From NCBI GenBank assembly GCA_011364925.1, contig RDOA01000020.1, positions 1 through 55,391 on the forward strand: DNA of 55,391 nt, written 5' to 3'. Positions 16,835 to 50,345 of the stretch are shown here, piece by piece. A program made the position numbers and the translations under genes. The stretch's first letter is position 1, and each line of letters begins with the position of its first letter. The DNA comes from Promethearchaeota archaeon (lineage in GTDB: Archaea; Asgardarchaeota; Lokiarchaeia; Sigyniarchaeales; SOKP01). Under the pieces are notes generated by a model. That model did no database searches. It was not told the origin of the DNA and was given only the letters and a program-made list of their open reading frames with translations.

Positions 16835-17129
16835 AATCTTTTCAAGATATTGATTTAAGACATTTTTCACACTTCCTTTATTGATATTAATGTTTTCCAA
16901 TCGTTTTTCTCAGTTAATTTGATTGATAAACGCCTAAAATTTAAAATTAAAAGAGAAACATAGAAAATGTGGTCTCAAAACATAAAAAATAGAAGTTACA
17001 TATTGAGATATCACTTACATAATACCTCATATTATTTAGGGCTGAAAAAATTCCTAATTCTTAAATATTTTTAAATTCTAATATTTAGTTAAGCAGACTT
17101 AATGATAATTAAGGGTTCCTTTATATAAA
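16835..17129. other. 295-nt AT-rich gap between rps7 and the ATP-cone gene
   Basis: Holds no open frame of note and no tRNA-like cloverleaf. It must carry the end of the ribosomal operon and the promoter for the gene at 17130. Nothing else is recognised. Confidence 0.5.
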
Positions 17130-19076
17130 TTGAGTTCCGACAAAAATCAAGATCTATTAGAAAAGCAACTTAAAACACTAGGTCAAAAAATAAGAATTGA
17201 CATTTTAAAAAAGTTAAGTCTAACTAGCGATCCTTTACCCTATTCATCGCTGCAAAAGGAAGTATTGGGAACAAATCCAAATTCCATAAATTTTTCATTT
17301 CATTTAAAAGCGTTAAAAAATAGCGTTCTAATAGAATCATCTGATAATGGCTATATGTTAAGTCTTCTTGGGAAACAGATTTTAAAGAACATTGTGTCTA
17401 TTGAACAAATCCTTAATAATAATAATAAGACAGTAATGATTAGGACTTCTAAATACTCAAAGGAACCATTTGATGTTAATAAAATCGAAGAATATTTGAT
17501 CAAGGAAGGAGAAGTAGAAAAAAGCGAAGCAGAACAAATCGCAAGGGAGGTCGAAGAACGTTTATCAAAAACAAACATTAATTATTTAACAGCGCCCTTG
17601 ATGAGGGAATACATTAATGTTATTTTATTAGAAAATGGTCAAGAAGAAATTAGGCACAAATTAACGAGATTAGGTACCCCTCCTTTTGACGTGCATAAAA
17701 GTTTTGATAACTCTTTATTAGGTCCCGAGCAGTTTCTCTCAAAATTAGGATCAGATGTATCTGAGCAATTTTTACTCTTAAATTTAATTCCTAAAAACTT
17801 AGCTGATCTTTACTTATCTGGAGATATTGCCCTACTTAATCTAAATTACTGGAGTTTAAGACCTTTAGCACTACTGTTGGATACAAAAGCAATTGTAAAT
17901 TATGTTCAAGATCGATATTCGATAAATGGGGAGAAAAGTAACCTTAAAGTAAACAATATCAGGTTAATAACACATTTCTTCGACACTCTTGCTATGATGA
18001 GCCCTTACTTCTCCGAAGATATATTACTTTGTAACTTTTCCGAAATGTTAGTGGCTCTTCAAAATTGTAATGGACAGGGTTCACAACTTCTAAAAATTCT
18101 AATGTCACAACTTTTCAATCATAACAGACATCCATACGACGTAAAATCCCACCTATCCCTTGAAATTTCCAATCACGATGTTTTTTTTGATGAGATATTT
18201 AACCAAATCGATACAAGTGAGGAGCCTATTGCTCCGTTGATCTTATTTGATTTTAATAAACTTAATACTACTAACAGTTCATACAATCTCTTTATCCAGA
18301 ATATAAAATTAGGTAATTGTCGTAATTTTATCTTCTATAATAAGAAAAAGTCAAGTTTACTTAATTCTACGCATATTAATGCCACCAATTCAAATGGTGA
18401 TAAAACTATAGAAAATAGAATCGTTTTGGATAAAATTTTAATAAATTTACATAAGATTGCTGAAGATTCTAATCAAGATGATGCTAAATACTTTGAAAAG
18501 CTACAGAAAAAACTCGATTCTGTTTTTACCCTCTTCTCTTATAAGAAGGAATTAGTAAGTCGTAAGTTGAAATCCTCAAATCGATGGAAAAGAATAATTT
18601 CTGCCTTTTTTCAATCTGACGACGCTAAATTTTTTAACAATGCGTTAAAATCTGTCAGCTTTTTTGGCTTTAATGAAGCAATTAAAACTCATTGTGGTAT
18701 CGAGATTGATAGAATTGAACCAAGTGAGTCATTTGCGTTGAAAGTTTTAGATTTTATGGGAAAATTAATTGAAGAAAAAAACCAGGACGAAAGTGAAAAT
18801 TTTGTCTTAACTCAACCTCATTACGATTCTTATTTATACGATGCGTGGCACAACACTCAACATAATTTAAATGATACAGCTGATCAATACAGTATTAATA
18901 TTGTCAGAGGTGATTCGAAAGCGCCACTCAATAGAAAAATTGAGTTATACAGTAAATTTGGGAAACTCCTTAGAGGAGGAAGCTTATTTACATCAGGAAT
19001 CGATAAAAAATCTGTCGAGGATCAACTGGATGTTTTAATAAAATCAAAAATAAATGCATTTCAATTAAAAATTTAA
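17130..19076 (+). CDS. HTH / ATP-cone / NrdD-like protein (putative nucleotide-sensing regulator)
   Basis: 648 residues. Residues 1-95 read as an ArsR-like winged helix (GQKIRIDILKKL; INFSFHLKALKNSVLI). Residues ~105-190 are an ATP-cone, with VMIRTSKYSKEPFDVNKIEEYL and LTAPLMREYINVILLENG. The remainder resembles the anaerobic ribonucleotide reductase (NrdD) barrel, starting FDNSLLGPEQFLSKLGSDVSEQ-like text and including DIALLNLNYWSLRP. The C-terminus has no glycyl-radical RVxGY motif and no NrdD zinc cysteines, so it cannot be a working reductase. A dATP/ATP-sensing transcription factor is a reasonable inference. TTG start at 17130. It stands alone with its own upstream gap. Confidence 0.75.
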   Translation: MSSDKNQDLLEKQLKTLGQKIRIDILKKLSLTSDPLPYSSLQKEVLGTNPNSINFSFHLKALKNSVLIESSDNGYMLSLLGKQILKNIVSIEQILNNNNKTVMIRTSKYSKEPFDVNKIEEYLIKEGEVEKSEAEQIAREVEERLSKTNINYLTAPLMREYINVILLENGQEEIRHKLTRLGTPPFDVHKSFDNSLLGPEQFLSKLGSDVSEQFLLLNLIPKNLADLYLSGDIALLNLNYWSLRPLALLLDTKAIVNYVQDRYSINGEKSNLKVNNIRLITHFFDTLAMMSPYFSEDILLCNFSEMLVALQNCNGQGSQLLKILMSQLFNHNRHPYDVKSHLSLEISNHDVFFDEIFNQIDTSEEPIAPLILFDFNKLNTTNSSYNLFIQNIKLGNCRNFIFYNKKKSSLLNSTHINATNSNGDKTIENRIVLDKILINLHKIAEDSNQDDAKYFEKLQKKLDSVFTLFSYKKELVSRKLKSSNRWKRIISAFFQSDDAKFFNNALKSVSFFGFNEAIKTHCGIEIDRIEPSESFALKVLDFMGKLIEEKNQDESENFVLTQPHYDSYLYDAWHNTQHNLNDTADQYSINIVRGDSKAPLNRKIELYSKFGKLLRGGSLFTSGIDKKSVEDQLDVLIKSKINAFQLKI

Positions 19077-19086
19077 CTCAACAGTT

Positions 19087-20013
19087 TTAATCTGATAAGA
19101 GTTCAGCCAGTATTGCCTTTCTCATTGGAATTCCATAATATGCCTGTTTAAAGAAAATTGCCTTTGGTGAATCGTCAATCTCGGATGAAATCTCGTTAAC
19201 TCTTGGTAATGGGTGCATTATCTTAAAGTCGTCTTTCGTTTCTTCCATATCCTTTTTAGTAAACACATAAAAATCTTTAACTCTATCGTATTCTTCAATA
19301 TCGGCGAATCGTTCTTTTTGTATTCTTGTAATATAAAGAACATCAAGAATACCTAAAATGTCTCGATATCTCTCAATCTCTTTATACTTCACATGTCTCT
19401 GTTGCAAAAAATCCTTGTCTCTGTTTCTCAACATCAAGTCCTTAGGACTTATAAAGTATATATTCGCTTCGAAATTTGATAGTAGAATAGATAATGAATG
19501 AACCGTTCGACCATATTTCAAATCACCCATTATCCCAATATTTAATCCATCTAATTTATGTCCTGCTTGAGTAATTGTTAATAAATCTAAGAGAGCCTGA
19601 GTAGGATGTTCTCCACTTCCAGATCCCGCGTTAATAACAGGTATTCGTGCAAATTTAGCAGCTAACCTTGCCGCACCTTCTAAATTATGCCTAATCACAA
19701 TACCATCACAGTAATTCTCTACAGTTCGAACAGTATCTGCGATGGTTTCACCTTTTTTAGTTGAAGCCACGTCTCCAGTGTGAAAACCAATTACATTCCC
19801 TCCAAGACGATACATTGCTGATTCAAAACTTAACCTTGTCCTAGTAGAAGGCTCAAAAAATAAAGTGGCAAGAATTTTTCCTTTTAAAATCTCAGAGTTT
19901 TTATCGTTATTAATCATTTCTTTGCTTTTTTGGAGTAGATAATCAATATCTTCTCGCGTAAAATCCTTCGCTGTTATGATTCCTTCTTCAAATTTTTCTT
20001 TAAACGACATCAT
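19087..20013 (-). CDS. pyrB: Aspartate carbamoyltransferase catalytic subunit
   Basis: 308 residues from the chosen ATG, the normal PyrB length. It condenses carbamoyl phosphate and aspartate in pyrimidine synthesis. FFEPSTRTRLSFESAM holds the carbamoyl-phosphate loop (STRTR); SGSGEHPTQALLDLLTI and the C-terminal MHPLPRVNEIS provide further active-site residues. The frame is open to a TTG at 20088, but that would add a 25-residue hydrophobic N-terminus (LYGITIILLKLLF) foreign to the family, so I use the tandem ATGs at 20008-20013. The regulatory subunit gene pyrI is not adjacent. Divergent from rpl44e. Confidence 0.93.
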   Translation of the reverse strand: MMSFKEKFEEGIITAKDFTREDIDYLLQKSKEMINNDKNSEILKGKILATLFFEPSTRTRLSFESAMYRLGGNVIGFHTGDVASTKKGETIADTVRTVENYCDGIVIRHNLEGAARLAAKFARIPVINAGSGSGEHPTQALLDLLTITQAGHKLDGLNIGIMGDLKYGRTVHSLSILLSNFEANIYFISPKDLMLRNRDKDFLQQRHVKYKEIERYRDILGILDVLYITRIQKERFADIEEYDRVKDFYVFTKKDMEETKDDFKIMHPLPRVNEISSEIDDSPKAIFFKQAYYGIPMRKAILAELLSD

Positions 20014-20118
20014 TCTGAACAAAAGTTTTAATAAAATTATTGTAATACCATATAAAACATTTTTTATTAACCTATGCTTTCCTAACAAAGAATAACGCAG
20101 AACTAATAAAATTTAAAA

Positions 20119-44717: not shown

Positions 44718-46724
44718 ATGATATCTAATTTCAAAATTGAATCAGAATTTGTCCCTCGTGGAGATCAGCCAGAAGCGATAAATGCTCTTGCAGAGAATAT
44801 AAAGAATGGAAAGAGATTTCAAACTTTGCTTGGAGCAACTGGTACGGGTAAAACATTTACAATTGCAAATATGATTGAGGAAATTCAAAAGCCAACCTTA
44901 GTCATGGCGCCAAACAAAACCCTCGCAGCACAGTTGTACAACGAGCTTAAAGAACTATTTCCTAACAACGCGGTCCATTACTTCGTAAGTTATTACGATT
45001 ATTATCAACCCGAAAGCTATATGCCAATCACTGGGTTATATATTGAGAAAGATTTTAGCGTAAATGAAGAAATTGAAAGGCTTAGGTTAGCAGCAACTCA
45101 TGCAATAAGAACGAGAAATGATGTTATAATAGTAGCGACTGTGTCATGCATTTATGGAATTGGGGATCCTAAAATTTGGACAGCCATTTCTCTGGACCTT
45201 GAAGTGGGTCAGACAATTAAAAGAAATGAAATTCTAAAAAGATTAATTTTAATGAATTACGAACGAAAGGATATTGAATTTAAACCAGGGATAGTGAGGG
45301 TTCGGGGAGACATTATAGATGTCTTTCCTGCATACTTAGATACTGCTATTCGCATATCCTTGTTTGGAGATGTTATTGAGTCAATTCAAGAAATTCACTA
45401 CATTACTAATAATATATTAAAAGATATCTCAAACTGTAGAATCTTTCCGGCTACTCATTTTATCATACCGGAGGAAAACAAAGAAGTTGCTTTAGAGACA
45501 ATAGCAGCAGAACTCGAAATCCAAGTAGAAAAATTTATGAAAGAGAAAAAATACGCAGAAGCGCAGCGAATAGAAAAAAGAACTAAGTTTGATCTTGAAA
45601 TGATGAAGGAAATGGGATGGTGCAAAGGAGTAGAAAATTATTCTAGACACCTAGATAGAAGACCCCCTGGTAGTGCTCCAATGTGTTTGGTTGATTATTT
45701 TCCAGAAGACTTCTTAATTGTTGTTGATGAAAGTCACGTAACGATTCCGCAAATTCATGGAATGATCGGTGGAGACCGATCAAGAAAAAAGAATCTCATA
45801 GAATATGGGTGGAGACTTCCATCTGCTTACGATAATCGTCCACTTACATTCGAAGAATGGGAATCTAAAATTAAATACATCGTATTTATGAGCGCAACTC
45901 CCGGTGATTGGGAGTTAAAGAAAAGTGAAGGTATCTCAGCAGAACAAATAATTAGACCAACAGGACTCGTCGATCCTTTTGTCGAGATACGCCCCGCCAA
46001 AAACCAAATTGACGATTTGCTTGGGGAAATAAGAAAAGTTATTTCCAATAACGGACGGGTTTTGATTACGACCCTAACTAAGCGAATGTCTGAAGATATT
46101 GCGGAATATTACTCCGAAGTCGGTTTGAAGGTCACTTATTTACATTCAGAAGTAGACACTGTAGAAAGATTCGAAATTCTTAGGCACCTTAGAGACGGCA
46201 CCCATGATGTATTAGTTGGAATAAATTTACTAAGAGAAGGACTCGATCTACCAGAAGTACAATTGGTTGCCATTCTGGACGCTGATAAATTAGGATTTTT
46301 AAGGGATACGCGATCACTAATACAAACTATTGGAAGAGCTTCGAGAAATATTGAAGGGAAAGCAATTTTATACGCCGATAAAACGACTTCTGCCATGAAA
46401 GAAGCAATTGAAGAAACTAATAGAAGAAGGAAAAAACAGATAGAATATAATGAGCTTAATAAGATCACACCTCAAACTGTAAAAAAGAACATTTTAAGTT
46501 CACTTTCAGAAGAACAAGAGTTGAAGGAAAAGGAAACTAAGAAATTAAAGCGAAATATTAAAGATAAGATTGATGAGTTAGAAAAACAAGGAGATCAGGA
46601 AGCAATCGTCCAATATCTCGAGAATAAAATGTTCTTAGCGGCTAAAGAACTTAGATTCGAAGATGCTGCGTTCTTGAGAGATAAAATAAGGGATTTAAAG
46701 AAGGACTACAATTTTAAACAGTGA
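44718..46724 (+). CDS. uvrB: Excinuclease ABC subunit B (UvrB)
   Basis: 668 residues. Walker A GATGTGKTF, the damage-probing beta-hairpin YYDYYQPESYMP, DESHVTIPQ (motif II-like), and the helicase end TIGRASRN are all present. The C-terminal UVR domain, which binds UvrC, covers about 630-665 (EAIVQYLENKMFLAAKELRFEDAA). UvrB verifies DNA damage delivered by UvrA and loads UvrC. UvrABC is a bacterial repair system that a minority of archaea acquired by transfer. ATG start. uvrA is 750 nt downstream in the same direction, with one gene between; no uvrC is seen. Confidence 0.96.
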   Translation: MISNFKIESEFVPRGDQPEAINALAENIKNGKRFQTLLGATGTGKTFTIANMIEEIQKPTLVMAPNKTLAAQLYNELKELFPNNAVHYFVSYYDYYQPESYMPITGLYIEKDFSVNEEIERLRLAATHAIRTRNDVIIVATVSCIYGIGDPKIWTAISLDLEVGQTIKRNEILKRLILMNYERKDIEFKPGIVRVRGDIIDVFPAYLDTAIRISLFGDVIESIQEIHYITNNILKDISNCRIFPATHFIIPEENKEVALETIAAELEIQVEKFMKEKKYAEAQRIEKRTKFDLEMMKEMGWCKGVENYSRHLDRRPPGSAPMCLVDYFPEDFLIVVDESHVTIPQIHGMIGGDRSRKKNLIEYGWRLPSAYDNRPLTFEEWESKIKYIVFMSATPGDWELKKSEGISAEQIIRPTGLVDPFVEIRPAKNQIDDLLGEIRKVISNNGRVLITTLTKRMSEDIAEYYSEVGLKVTYLHSEVDTVERFEILRHLRDGTHDVLVGINLLREGLDLPEVQLVAILDADKLGFLRDTRSLIQTIGRASRNIEGKAILYADKTTSAMKEAIEETNRRRKKQIEYNELNKITPQTVKKNILSSLSEEQELKEKETKKLKRNIKDKIDELEKQGDQEAIVQYLENKMFLAAKELRFEDAAFLRDKIRDLKKDYNFKQ

Positions 46725-47471: not shown

Positions 47472-50345
47472 ATGAGTCAGAATTCGATCATAATAAAAGG
47501 AGCGCGTCAGAATAACCTAAAAAATATTGACGTTGTCATTCCAAGGAATAAATTGGTCATTATTACTGGGATAAGTGGTAGTGGAAAATCAAGCTTAGCA
47601 ATGGATACTTTATACGCGGAAGGGCAACGAAGATTCTTGGAATCCTTATCTAGTTATGCGAGACAATTTCTTGGCGAAATGGATAAACCTGATGTTGATT
47701 CCATTGAAGGATTGTCTCCTGCTATAGCAATTGAACAAAAAGCACTTTCAAAAAATCCTCGGAGTACAGTTGGAACAGTCACAGAGATATACGATTATTA
47801 TAGGCTCCTTTTTGCTAATATTGGAATCCCACACTGCCCAAATTGCGGTAAAGAAATCAGACCCCAAACTCCTCAACAAATAATCCAACAAATAATGGAT
47901 GGTTTGGAAGATAATCAAAAGTTCATTATTAAAGCACCAGTTATCCGAGATCGAAAGGGTGAATATAAAGACCTTCTCAGCGACTTGAAAAAACAAGGAT
48001 ACGTAAGAGTTGAAGTAGATGGCATTCAGTATACTTTGGACGAAGAAATCTCCATGGAAAAGAATGTAAAACATAATATTAGCGTAATCGTTGATAGACT
48101 CGTTATGAAAAGTGACATCAAGACAAGATTAGCCGACTCCATTGAAACTGCTTTAGAATTGACAGATGGGATAGTAGTTGTCGAAGTTGTTGATATTGGA
48201 GAACAGGTTTATTCTGAGCATTTAGCATGTGTTAATTGTGGAATCTCTCTTCCACCAATTGATCATAAAATGTTTTCTTTTAACATTCCTCATGGAAGTT
48301 GCAAATATTGTAGTGGATTAGGAACCGTTATGGAATTTGACTATGGCTTGGTTTTAGGAAATGACATCAATGTACCATTACAAGAGTCACCTATAAGAAA
48401 CATTCCAGGATTCGGTTCTTTGACGGGATATTCTTGGCAATCAATAGAACATGTAGCTAAGCATTATGGGTTTGACACGGAGACCACAGCTATAAAGGAT
48501 ATTGATCCGAAAAAGTTACATAAATTATTATTTGGTACGGGAGAAGAAGCCATTGAATTTCTTTACAAAAGCGAAAATAATGGTTATAGAAATAATAAAG
48601 GCGAAATTAAAGCAACGTATCAAGTTGTACGACCCTTTGAAGGAATTATTCCTATGCTCCACAGAAGATATATGGATACCACCTCTGAGTGGGCTCGCGA
48701 TACTTATGAAGGTTTTATGAACCAAATTAATTGTCCTCAGTGTAATGGCCAAAGATTAAAGCCTGAAAGTCTTTCCGTTCTCGTTGATAATTATAATATC
48801 GCACAATTATCAGATTTAGCGGTTAAAGATTCGCTAAATTTCTTTAAAAACCTACAATTAGATGATATCCAAAAGAAGATCGTTAAAGATGTTTTAAAGG
48901 AGATTTTGGATAGATTGTCTTTCTTAGAAAATGTAGGATTAGACTACATCAGTTTGAGTCGACGATCCCATACGCTTTCTGTAGGTGAAGCTGAGAGAAT
49001 TAGGTTAGCGACTCAGTTAGGTTCAAGCTTGGTGGGCGTATTATATGTTTTAGATGAACCTTCTGTAGGTTTACATCAAAGAGATATCTCTCGATTAATA
49101 GAAATGTTGAAAAAGCTAAGAGATTTAGGCAATACTGTAATAGTTGTAGAACACGATGATGAGATAATGCGTAACGCTGATCACATCATTGATCTTGGTC
49201 CATTAGCAGGGGAAAGTGGTGGAGAAATCGTAGCTGAAGGTCCGTTATCTACGATATTAGAATCTAAAACATTAACTGGTAAATTTTTGTCAGGTAAAAA
49301 GAAGATCGAAGTTCCTAAAGAAAGACGAGAGATTGATGACAACTTTATTGAAATCACAGGTGCGAGAGAAAATAATCTTAAAAATATAAATGTAAGAATT
49401 CCGCTCGGAGTTTTTACATGTATAACAGGTGTCTCAGGAGCGGGAAAAACAAGTCTTATTATCGATTGTCTGTATAAAGGATTGCGTAATATAGTTAACA
49501 CACGCAGCTCTCGGTTAGTTGCCGGTGATTTTGACGAAATAAAAGGACACAAATCCATTGATAAAATTATTAATATTGACCAATCTCCCATTGGCAGAAC
49601 CCCCCGTTCTGTACCGGCCACTTACACAAAAGCGTTAGACTATATAAGAGAAATATTTGCCAAACTAGAAGAGTCTAGAGAAAGAGGATATAAAAAGGGA
49701 CGGTTTAGTTTCAATACTAAAACGGGTCATTGTAAAAAATGCAGAGGAACTGGTTATATTCTCAAAGAAATGTACTTCCTGCCAGATGTATATATTAAAT
49801 GTGATTTATGTAAAGGCCACAGATATAACGCTGAAACTTTAGAAGTTCGTTATAAGGGAAAGACGATTTCAGACGTGTTGAAAATGACCTTTCATCAAGC
49901 TCTTGAGTTCTTTGATAGTATTCCTAACTTGAAACAAACATTAAAAACAGTAGTAGATGTTGGATTGGGATATTTAGAGCTAGGGCAATCATCAACGACT
50001 CTGAGTGGAGGGGAATCTCAACGTTTAAAAATTGCGCGGGAACTCAGAAAAACAAGCACGGGGAATACTTTGTACATACTTGATGAACCAACGACAGGAT
50101 TACATGCATATGATATAAAGTTTTTATTAAATGTACTCCAAAAATTGGTCGATAAAGGTAACACTGTAATTATTATAGAACATAATATGGATGTAATAAA
50201 ATCCGTAGATTACCTAATTGACCTTGGACCCGAGGGCGGAGAAAAGGGAGGTAAAGTAGTTGTAATGGGAACCCCTGAAGAAGTTATTAAAAATAAAACA
50301 TCATTTACCGCGAAATATCTTAAAAAATACTTAAATCAAGCATAA
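47472..50345 (+). CDS. uvrA: Excinuclease ABC subunit A (UvrA)
   Basis: 957 residues with the two-ATPase UvrA plan. First Walker A GISGSGKSS (about 33), second GVSGAGKTS. Zinc-binding pairs are CPNCG, CVNCG/CKYC, and CKKCRGTGY with CDLCKG (C-terminal finger). Signature/Walker B blocks are LSVGEAERIRLATQ with LYVLDEPSVGLH, and LSGGESQRLKIARE with LYILDEPTTGLH. The first signature reads LSVGEAE, where LSGGEAQ is standard. UvrA recognises damaged DNA with UvrB. Bacterial origin is likely. ATG start; TAGTTGTAAAC precedes it. Confidence 0.96.
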   Translation: MSQNSIIIKGARQNNLKNIDVVIPRNKLVIITGISGSGKSSLAMDTLYAEGQRRFLESLSSYARQFLGEMDKPDVDSIEGLSPAIAIEQKALSKNPRSTVGTVTEIYDYYRLLFANIGIPHCPNCGKEIRPQTPQQIIQQIMDGLEDNQKFIIKAPVIRDRKGEYKDLLSDLKKQGYVRVEVDGIQYTLDEEISMEKNVKHNISVIVDRLVMKSDIKTRLADSIETALELTDGIVVVEVVDIGEQVYSEHLACVNCGISLPPIDHKMFSFNIPHGSCKYCSGLGTVMEFDYGLVLGNDINVPLQESPIRNIPGFGSLTGYSWQSIEHVAKHYGFDTETTAIKDIDPKKLHKLLFGTGEEAIEFLYKSENNGYRNNKGEIKATYQVVRPFEGIIPMLHRRYMDTTSEWARDTYEGFMNQINCPQCNGQRLKPESLSVLVDNYNIAQLSDLAVKDSLNFFKNLQLDDIQKKIVKDVLKEILDRLSFLENVGLDYISLSRRSHTLSVGEAERIRLATQLGSSLVGVLYVLDEPSVGLHQRDISRLIEMLKKLRDLGNTVIVVEHDDEIMRNADHIIDLGPLAGESGGEIVAEGPLSTILESKTLTGKFLSGKKKIEVPKERREIDDNFIEITGARENNLKNINVRIPLGVFTCITGVSGAGKTSLIIDCLYKGLRNIVNTRSSRLVAGDFDEIKGHKSIDKIINIDQSPIGRTPRSVPATYTKALDYIREIFAKLEESRERGYKKGRFSFNTKTGHCKKCRGTGYILKEMYFLPDVYIKCDLCKGHRYNAETLEVRYKGKTISDVLKMTFHQALEFFDSIPNLKQTLKTVVDVGLGYLELGQSSTTLSGGESQRLKIARELRKTSTGNTLYILDEPTTGLHAYDIKFLLNVLQKLVDKGNTVIIIEHNMDVIKSVDYLIDLGPEGGEKGGKVVVMGTPEEVIKNKTSFTAKYLKKYLNQA

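Follow-up and report, generated by a model that had tools for sequence, protein, structure and literature searches.

A gene in the 55,391-nt Lokiarchaeial contig analyzed here (the window, taken at its whole length) codes for a 648-residue protein that combines an N-terminal winged helix, an ATP-cone and an NrdD-like barrel devoid of its catalytic residues. We consider it fairly probable that this protein arose from a class III (anaerobic) ribonucleotide reductase (RNR) and now acts as a transcription factor that senses (d)ATP/ATP and controls DNA-precursor genes as well as its own gene. On our best reading, it resembles the bacterial RNR repressor NrdR in role, not in descent. A broader proposal is more tentative, and we give it somewhat less than an even chance. 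It holds that the dead NrdD with its winged helix senses (d)NTPs and, via the CCGACAAAA box, controls a replication-type regulon in Lokiarchaeia (its own gene and those for both classes of RNR, a RadA-like recombinase and a histone), while its relatives in Bathyarchaeia and other Asgard archaea take charge of the RNR genes. The gene, its protein domains and its neighbor are as follows.

17130–19076, + strand: winged helix/ATP-cone/pseudo-NrdD gene (the candidate regulator gene), TTG start, 648 aa
17169–17393, + strand: DUF7347 (PF24038)/ArsR-like winged helix, aa 14–88; Pfam E-value 5.9e-10, model pLDDT 91
17286–17321, + strand: predicted recognition helix, aa 53–64; H58 and L62 invariant
17436–17651, + strand: ATP-cone, aa 103–174; Pfam E-value 2.3e-5, best-conserved region
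17682–19073, + strand: catalytically dead NrdD-like barrel, aa 185–648; both catalytic Cys substituted, no Gly-radical loop and no zinc ribbon
18303–19001, + strand: Pfam NRDD (PF13597) match, aa 392–624; E-value 2.9e-14
19087–20088, − strand: pyrB (aspartate carbamoyltransferase), convergent neighbor; context, not part of the regulator

The open reading frame agrees exactly with the coordinates first proposed for the gene (17130–19076). It lies downstream of rps12 and rps7 and is convergent with pyrB; Rfam had no matches in the window. Orthologs of the protein are present in 53 of 58 relatives, mostly metagenome assemblies, and their frame is open in nearly all of them. Moreover, differences between the window gene and its counterpart L002 are concentrated at codon position 3 (0.49) rather than position 2 (0.17). 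Therefore, we regard 17130–19076 as a real gene. It is intact throughout Lokiarchaeia, and identity among members of the pseudo-NrdD family is ~40–63%. A scan of genome contigs with the single 648-residue sequence returned no relatives, and an alignment query was needed; with it, 205 relatives were collected from GTDB contigs. The best 80 of these come from Lokiarchaeia (including Prometheoarchaeum and Harpocratesius), Sigyn-, Jord-, Frey- and Helarchaea, many Bathyarchaeia, and Culexmicrobium. In a phylum-wide scan, several more Asgard families proved to have the protein at full length. The search for the same architecture, suggested in the original prediction, thus found it broadly in archaea and not just in the Loki lineage. 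Conservation (majority-residue frequency) peaks in the ATP-cone (0.72); the N-terminal part of NrdD (0.65) comes next, then the winged helix (0.61), and the mid-barrel has the minimum (0.39). Judged by sequence, the family keeps its predicted sensing and DNA-binding parts while the catalytic part decays.

The AlphaFold model of the complete protein, based on 45 family sequences, has a pLDDT of 83.6 and a pTM of 0.75. According to Foldseek, it matches solved class III RNRs including their ATP-cone (E-value 1.8e-18, TM-score about 0.5–0.57), so that the class III barrel fold is present. The first 36 structural matches are all class III RNRs (Prevotella copri, Streptococcus thermophilus, Thermotoga maritima and phage-type NrdD). 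A phmmer search of the protein against PDB gave no match, but profile and fold searches did. Modeled alone, the N-terminal domain forms a winged helix (pLDDT 91), the best structural match of which is the DNA-binding domain of CggR on its operator (E-value 2.5e-3); ArsR-type repressors rank just behind, and the profile and fold E-values of the domain against PDB are modest (about 3e-3). Structure prediction, proposed at the outset as a check, thus returned both a class III RNR fold with an ATP-cone and an N-terminal winged helix similar to that of operator-bound CggR. The window protein shares the N-terminal fold and the recognition-helix pattern with ArsR/CggR-type regulators; however, in place of their metal or sugar sensor it has an ATP-cone with a dead enzyme. 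As for the retained winged helix and ATP-cone, five residues (R22, H58, R105, R175 and R180) are invariant in all 45 family sequences. The ATP-cone match is marginal in the window protein, which scores 25.3 bits, just below the 25.8 cut-off, and misses the canonical KRDG run; several relatives score above the cut-off. The same genomes also encode stand-alone ATP-cone proteins, likewise outside an active RNR but without the winged helix and the NrdD body. Such a protein (about 150–190 aa; L034:1893-2339 (-), G000 C91), with counterparts of 144–196 aa in most Lokiarchaeal genomes searched, carries no zinc ribbon and no other known domain.

Comparison of upstream regions revealed a rare promoter element, CCGAYAAAA, which the regulator gene has in common with both RNR genes, nrdD and the class II gene. 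The relevant features of the window are listed below; TATA boxes were called by pattern throughout.

17008–17026, + strand: second conserved box, ATATCAC-N4-ATAwYAYC (11-bp period); sole exact match in the window genome
17051–17067, + strand: BRE/TATA-like core promoter TTCCTAATTCTTAAATA, by pattern and conservation; its TATA-like stretch starts 76 nt before the element
17137–17147, + strand: CCGACAAAAAT element, common to nrdD and class II RNR promoters; overlaps regulator codons 3–6

Among all 8-mers, CGACAAAA ranked first, occurring in 25 of 35 gene-by-genus cells (mean 0.59 and maximum 4 in the random, Markov control), the genomes being related and the genus cells only partly independent. 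When families f2 and f3 were considered alone, CGACAAA shared the top rank of those 7-mers that contain at least three G/C (8 of 12 cells). Twenty nrdD promoters and 15 class II promoters have a TATA-to-element spacing of exactly 70 nt; in most copies of the regulator gene it is 67–78 nt. The spaced pattern TTTATAT-N62-64-CCGAYRAAA matched 42 times in 46 family genomes (7 times when reversed as a control), mostly at nrdD, the class II RNR gene or the regulator gene; the only two matches in the window genome are its nrdD and its class II RNR gene. Matches at G031, G069 and G063 have unrelated neighbors and were taken as chance; the single matches at G058 and G074 were assumed to be chance too. 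A palindrome shared by the nrd genes and the regulator gene had been anticipated. A shared cis-element does exist, but in the family of the window gene it is the non-palindromic CCGAYAAAA at a fixed spacing from TATA.

No gene carries the element more consistently than the regulator gene (32 of 40). At 57 further loci (up to 8 kb), the element occurs almost solely at or just before the regulator start (53 of 57; of the four others, two are cut at the 5′ side), and CGACAAAA is present at none of the window's other 42 gene starts, including those of PCNA, primase and RFC as identified by translation. In family f1 regulators, NCC-GAC is found at the element in 25 of 26 cases, although GAC accounts for 19% of Asp codons and TCC for 10% of Ser codons. 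Replacement of the Ser by Pro or Ala leaves the CC intact. In L018, a stop codon separates the element from the regulator ATG, and in L045 (f3) the element overlaps the regulator start codon in another frame. Because of these rare codons, the retained CC and the stop and other-frame cases, we conclude that the element within the regulator gene is conserved as DNA.

Other motifs of these 5′ regions behaved differently. The ATATCAC-N4-ATAwYAYC box precedes the regulator gene across family f1; it was ruled out as a shared operator because it is confined to the f1 regulator promoter and neither nrdD nor class II promoters have it. A GTTAAG motif was also seen, at no constant spacing. In addition, L318, L325, L326 and L327 share a common sequence around AGCCTAGACCAAGCTAGCCGACAGCCCC, ~100–200 nt upstream of bathyarchaeal family members; it is possibly an operator or the terminal part of an RNA gene.

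To look beyond RNR genes, we clustered the genes adjacent to CCGAYAAAAWW sites in eight genomes, seeking recurrent orthologous neighbors at near-constant distances. The clustering also recovers the RNRs and the regulator gene. A Rad51/RadA-like gene (Pfam Rad51, E-value 1.3e-16) carries the element in six of the eight genomes and a divergent histone/TrmB pair in four. For a 122-residue protein without a Pfam match, the element is always 163 nt from the start, in five genomes (L147:983-1348 (-), L355, L385, L420 and L423), and two other uncharacterized gene sets carry it in five genomes each. In promoters of non-RNR genes the element is often reversed. In alignments of the RadA-like, 122-aa, 83–127-aa and membrane-protein sets, it forms an island of conservation; upstream of the histone gene, conservation is broader than the element alone. 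An Orc1/Cdc6-like gene was considered as a target and is not relied on, as its sites occur in three genomes only, at inconsistent positions, and the set does not align. The bare 11-mer is barely more common genome-wide than its reversed control; therefore, meaningful sites should be few per genome. Since the element also marks the RadA-like gene, the histone and several uncharacterized genes, the regulon is probably wider than RNR and includes some recombination and chromatin genes. Elsewhere in the window, bacterial-type UvrB and UvrA excision-repair genes are recognized, by translation only, at 44718–46724 and 47472–50345.

The window genome encodes two RNRs, an intact NrdD and a B12-type class II triphosphate reductase, and both have ATP-cones of their own. 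A PF02867 count of class I/II RNRs had indicated some genomes without any RNR; this was wrong, as the class II enzyme is of the triphosphate-reductase type and is missed by PF02867. Some RNR frames are 930–1690 aa long and have their homology in two halves, as expected for inteins, in both RNR classes (class II: G009:C24, G014:C87, G004:C201, G031:C118; NrdD: G007:C36, G008:C211, G027:C45). The NrdR zinc ribbon (PF22811) was found in none of 55 relatives, the same search being positive in 9 of 14 control genomes. Gene context links the regulator to RNRs in several lineages outside f1: regulator, glutaredoxin-like gene and nrdD follow each other on one strand in a bathyarchaeon, the regulator is followed by nrdJ in another archaeon, and in G079 a pyrB–regulator operon is convergent with nrdD. 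Linkage of the regulator gene to pyrB recurs in Lokiarchaeia, other Asgard lineages, Bathyarchaeia and Culexarchaeia.

Like the window protein, NrdR joins an ATP-cone to a DNA-binding module. The NrdR gene is often autoregulated and has RNR genes of different classes as targets, and dATP together with ATP permits its DNA binding (PMC9110341). In contrast to NrdR, the window protein has a winged helix instead of the zinc ribbon, an extra dead NrdD body of 450 residues and a different box. The original prediction of an RNR regulator functionally parallel to NrdR thus gains from the architecture, the dead active site, the absence of NrdR and the shared element; the palindrome and an RNR-only set of targets had to be given up. 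Archaeal NrdR is listed for haloarchaea, beside transferred class I genes (PMC3019208). In the open-access literature we found no description of RNR control in archaea outside haloarchaea, nor any report of a pseudo-NrdD winged-helix family (ATP-cone with helix-turn-helix, Asgard RNR, NrdD pseudoenzymes).

How such a regulator might work can be outlined. The ATP-cone would read the dATP/ATP ratio, and the dead NrdD body would serve as a dimerization and relay scaffold, much as nucleotides alter the oligomeric state of real NrdD; to judge by PMC11226230 and the titles of structures 8p28 and 8p27, dATP has this effect. Paired winged helices would bind the CCGAYAAAA element. By analogy with NrdR and NrdD, a dimer or oligomer switched by dATP/ATP may bind near the start of RNR transcripts; in f1, an element 70 nt after TATA would correspond to position ~40–45 of the expected transcript. 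The simplest outcome of binding at this place would be a block of transcription, leading to repression at high dATP, the regulator's own gene included. Both the repressor sign and the ligand are what we infer from these likenesses. If true, this would be a general non-NrdR route coupling DNA-precursor supply to demand in archaea, and a first indication that Asgard archaea, the closest group to eukaryotes, have a coordinated DNA-precursor/replication regulon. It would also be a clear case of an enzyme that became a regulator within the pathway it once served, and living lineages still show intermediate stages of this change. For archaeal RNR control it yields a candidate protein, a candidate box and a list of target promoters.

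We take the pairing of the regulator with the CCGAYAAAA box to be the weakest step of this reading. The main alternative, unlikely in our view but deserving serious weight, is that the box belongs to another factor, for example an Orc1/Cdc6-like or TrmB-like one, as in regulons tied to replication or damage. Such a factor would drive the RNRs, the RadA-like recombinase, a histone gene and the regulator gene jointly, so that the regulator gene is a mere target and its protein acts elsewhere. The conserved sites at the RadA-like gene, the histone/TrmB pair, the uncharacterized genes and, loosely, the Orc1/Cdc6-like gene (three genomes) would fit this explanation. What also counts against our reading is the absence of the element upstream of the pseudo-NrdD family members in f4–f7 and Bathyarchaeia; searches at class I nrdA and at nrdD of families f4–f7 did not find it either. 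However, the most consistent carrier of the element is a gene whose product has a winged helix, a pattern expected for autoregulation, and gene context ties the regulator to RNR genes even in lineages without the box. As for Orc1, its own sites are at unrelated positions.

It is also conceivable, though quite improbable, that the element is a signal in the mRNA leader, acting in translation or through an RNA-binding protein, and has nothing to do with the regulator protein. Its single orientation in f1, at a fixed distance of ~70 nt after TATA, could be explained in this way. Yet in f2 and in f1 genus g6 the element is also found reversed and upstream of the promoter, and reversed copies are frequent in promoters of other genes. 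Therefore, we favor a DNA site over an mRNA signal.

Apart from transcriptional control, the dead NrdD might modulate active NrdD by forming mixed dimers, its winged helix serving protein interaction. NrdD is dimeric, the dead body retains the fold, and the regulator gene adjoins nrdD in two lineages. Nevertheless, we find this role very unlikely: family members occur in genomes with a class II RNR in which no true NrdD was found (e.g. G042, G046 and G050), which disfavors a partner subunit, identity to true NrdD is low outside the ATP-cone, and the winged-helix residues R22 and H58 never vary.

The regulatory reading is in line with the state of the former active site. The window protein shares fold, ATP-cone and domain order with class III RNR (NrdD, PF13597), but it has gained the winged helix and lost all catalytic residues, the zinc ribbon and the glycyl loop. 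Catalytic positions of P. copri NrdD (Cys171, Cys416 and Gly711; PMC11226230) were transferred through the intact NrdD of the window genome and checked in 66 family members. The complete triad is present in none of the 66 aligned sequences; the window protein and family f1 keep no part of it and also lack the zinc ribbon. None of the 66 retains the second active-site cysteine (Cys171, in the first strand); where the intact NrdD has RPFC, the window protein has RPLA. The thiyl-radical cysteine (Cys416), replaced in the window protein, is kept only in four Bathyarchaeia, and the catalytic glycine only in Jord-, Sigyn-, Frey- and some Lokiarchaeia and in a few other Asgard members. The glycyl-radical RxxGY loop is absent from the window protein, the C-terminus of which precedes the zinc ribbon and the glycine loop. 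The claim that the missing glycyl-radical motif argues against an enzyme is thus borne out, with both catalytic cysteines replaced in addition, and the proposed combination of winged helix, ATP-cone and dead NrdD-like domain agrees with Pfam, the AlphaFold model and the catalytic residues. A still-active divergent reductase with a DNA-binding N-terminus is hardly credible: single catalytic residues do persist in some relatives, as listed above, but the triad is found in no member, the first-strand cysteine is lost throughout, the window protein lacks the entire glycyl loop, and its genome has a separate intact NrdD. Several genomes contain a second NrdD-like paralog of 556–640 aa (G030:C89, G011:C143, G034:C3, G015:C95, G029:C89 and G031:C115; upstream regions L212–L221). 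Its match ends before the glycyl-radical end and it has no winged helix; possibly, it is another dead NrdD.
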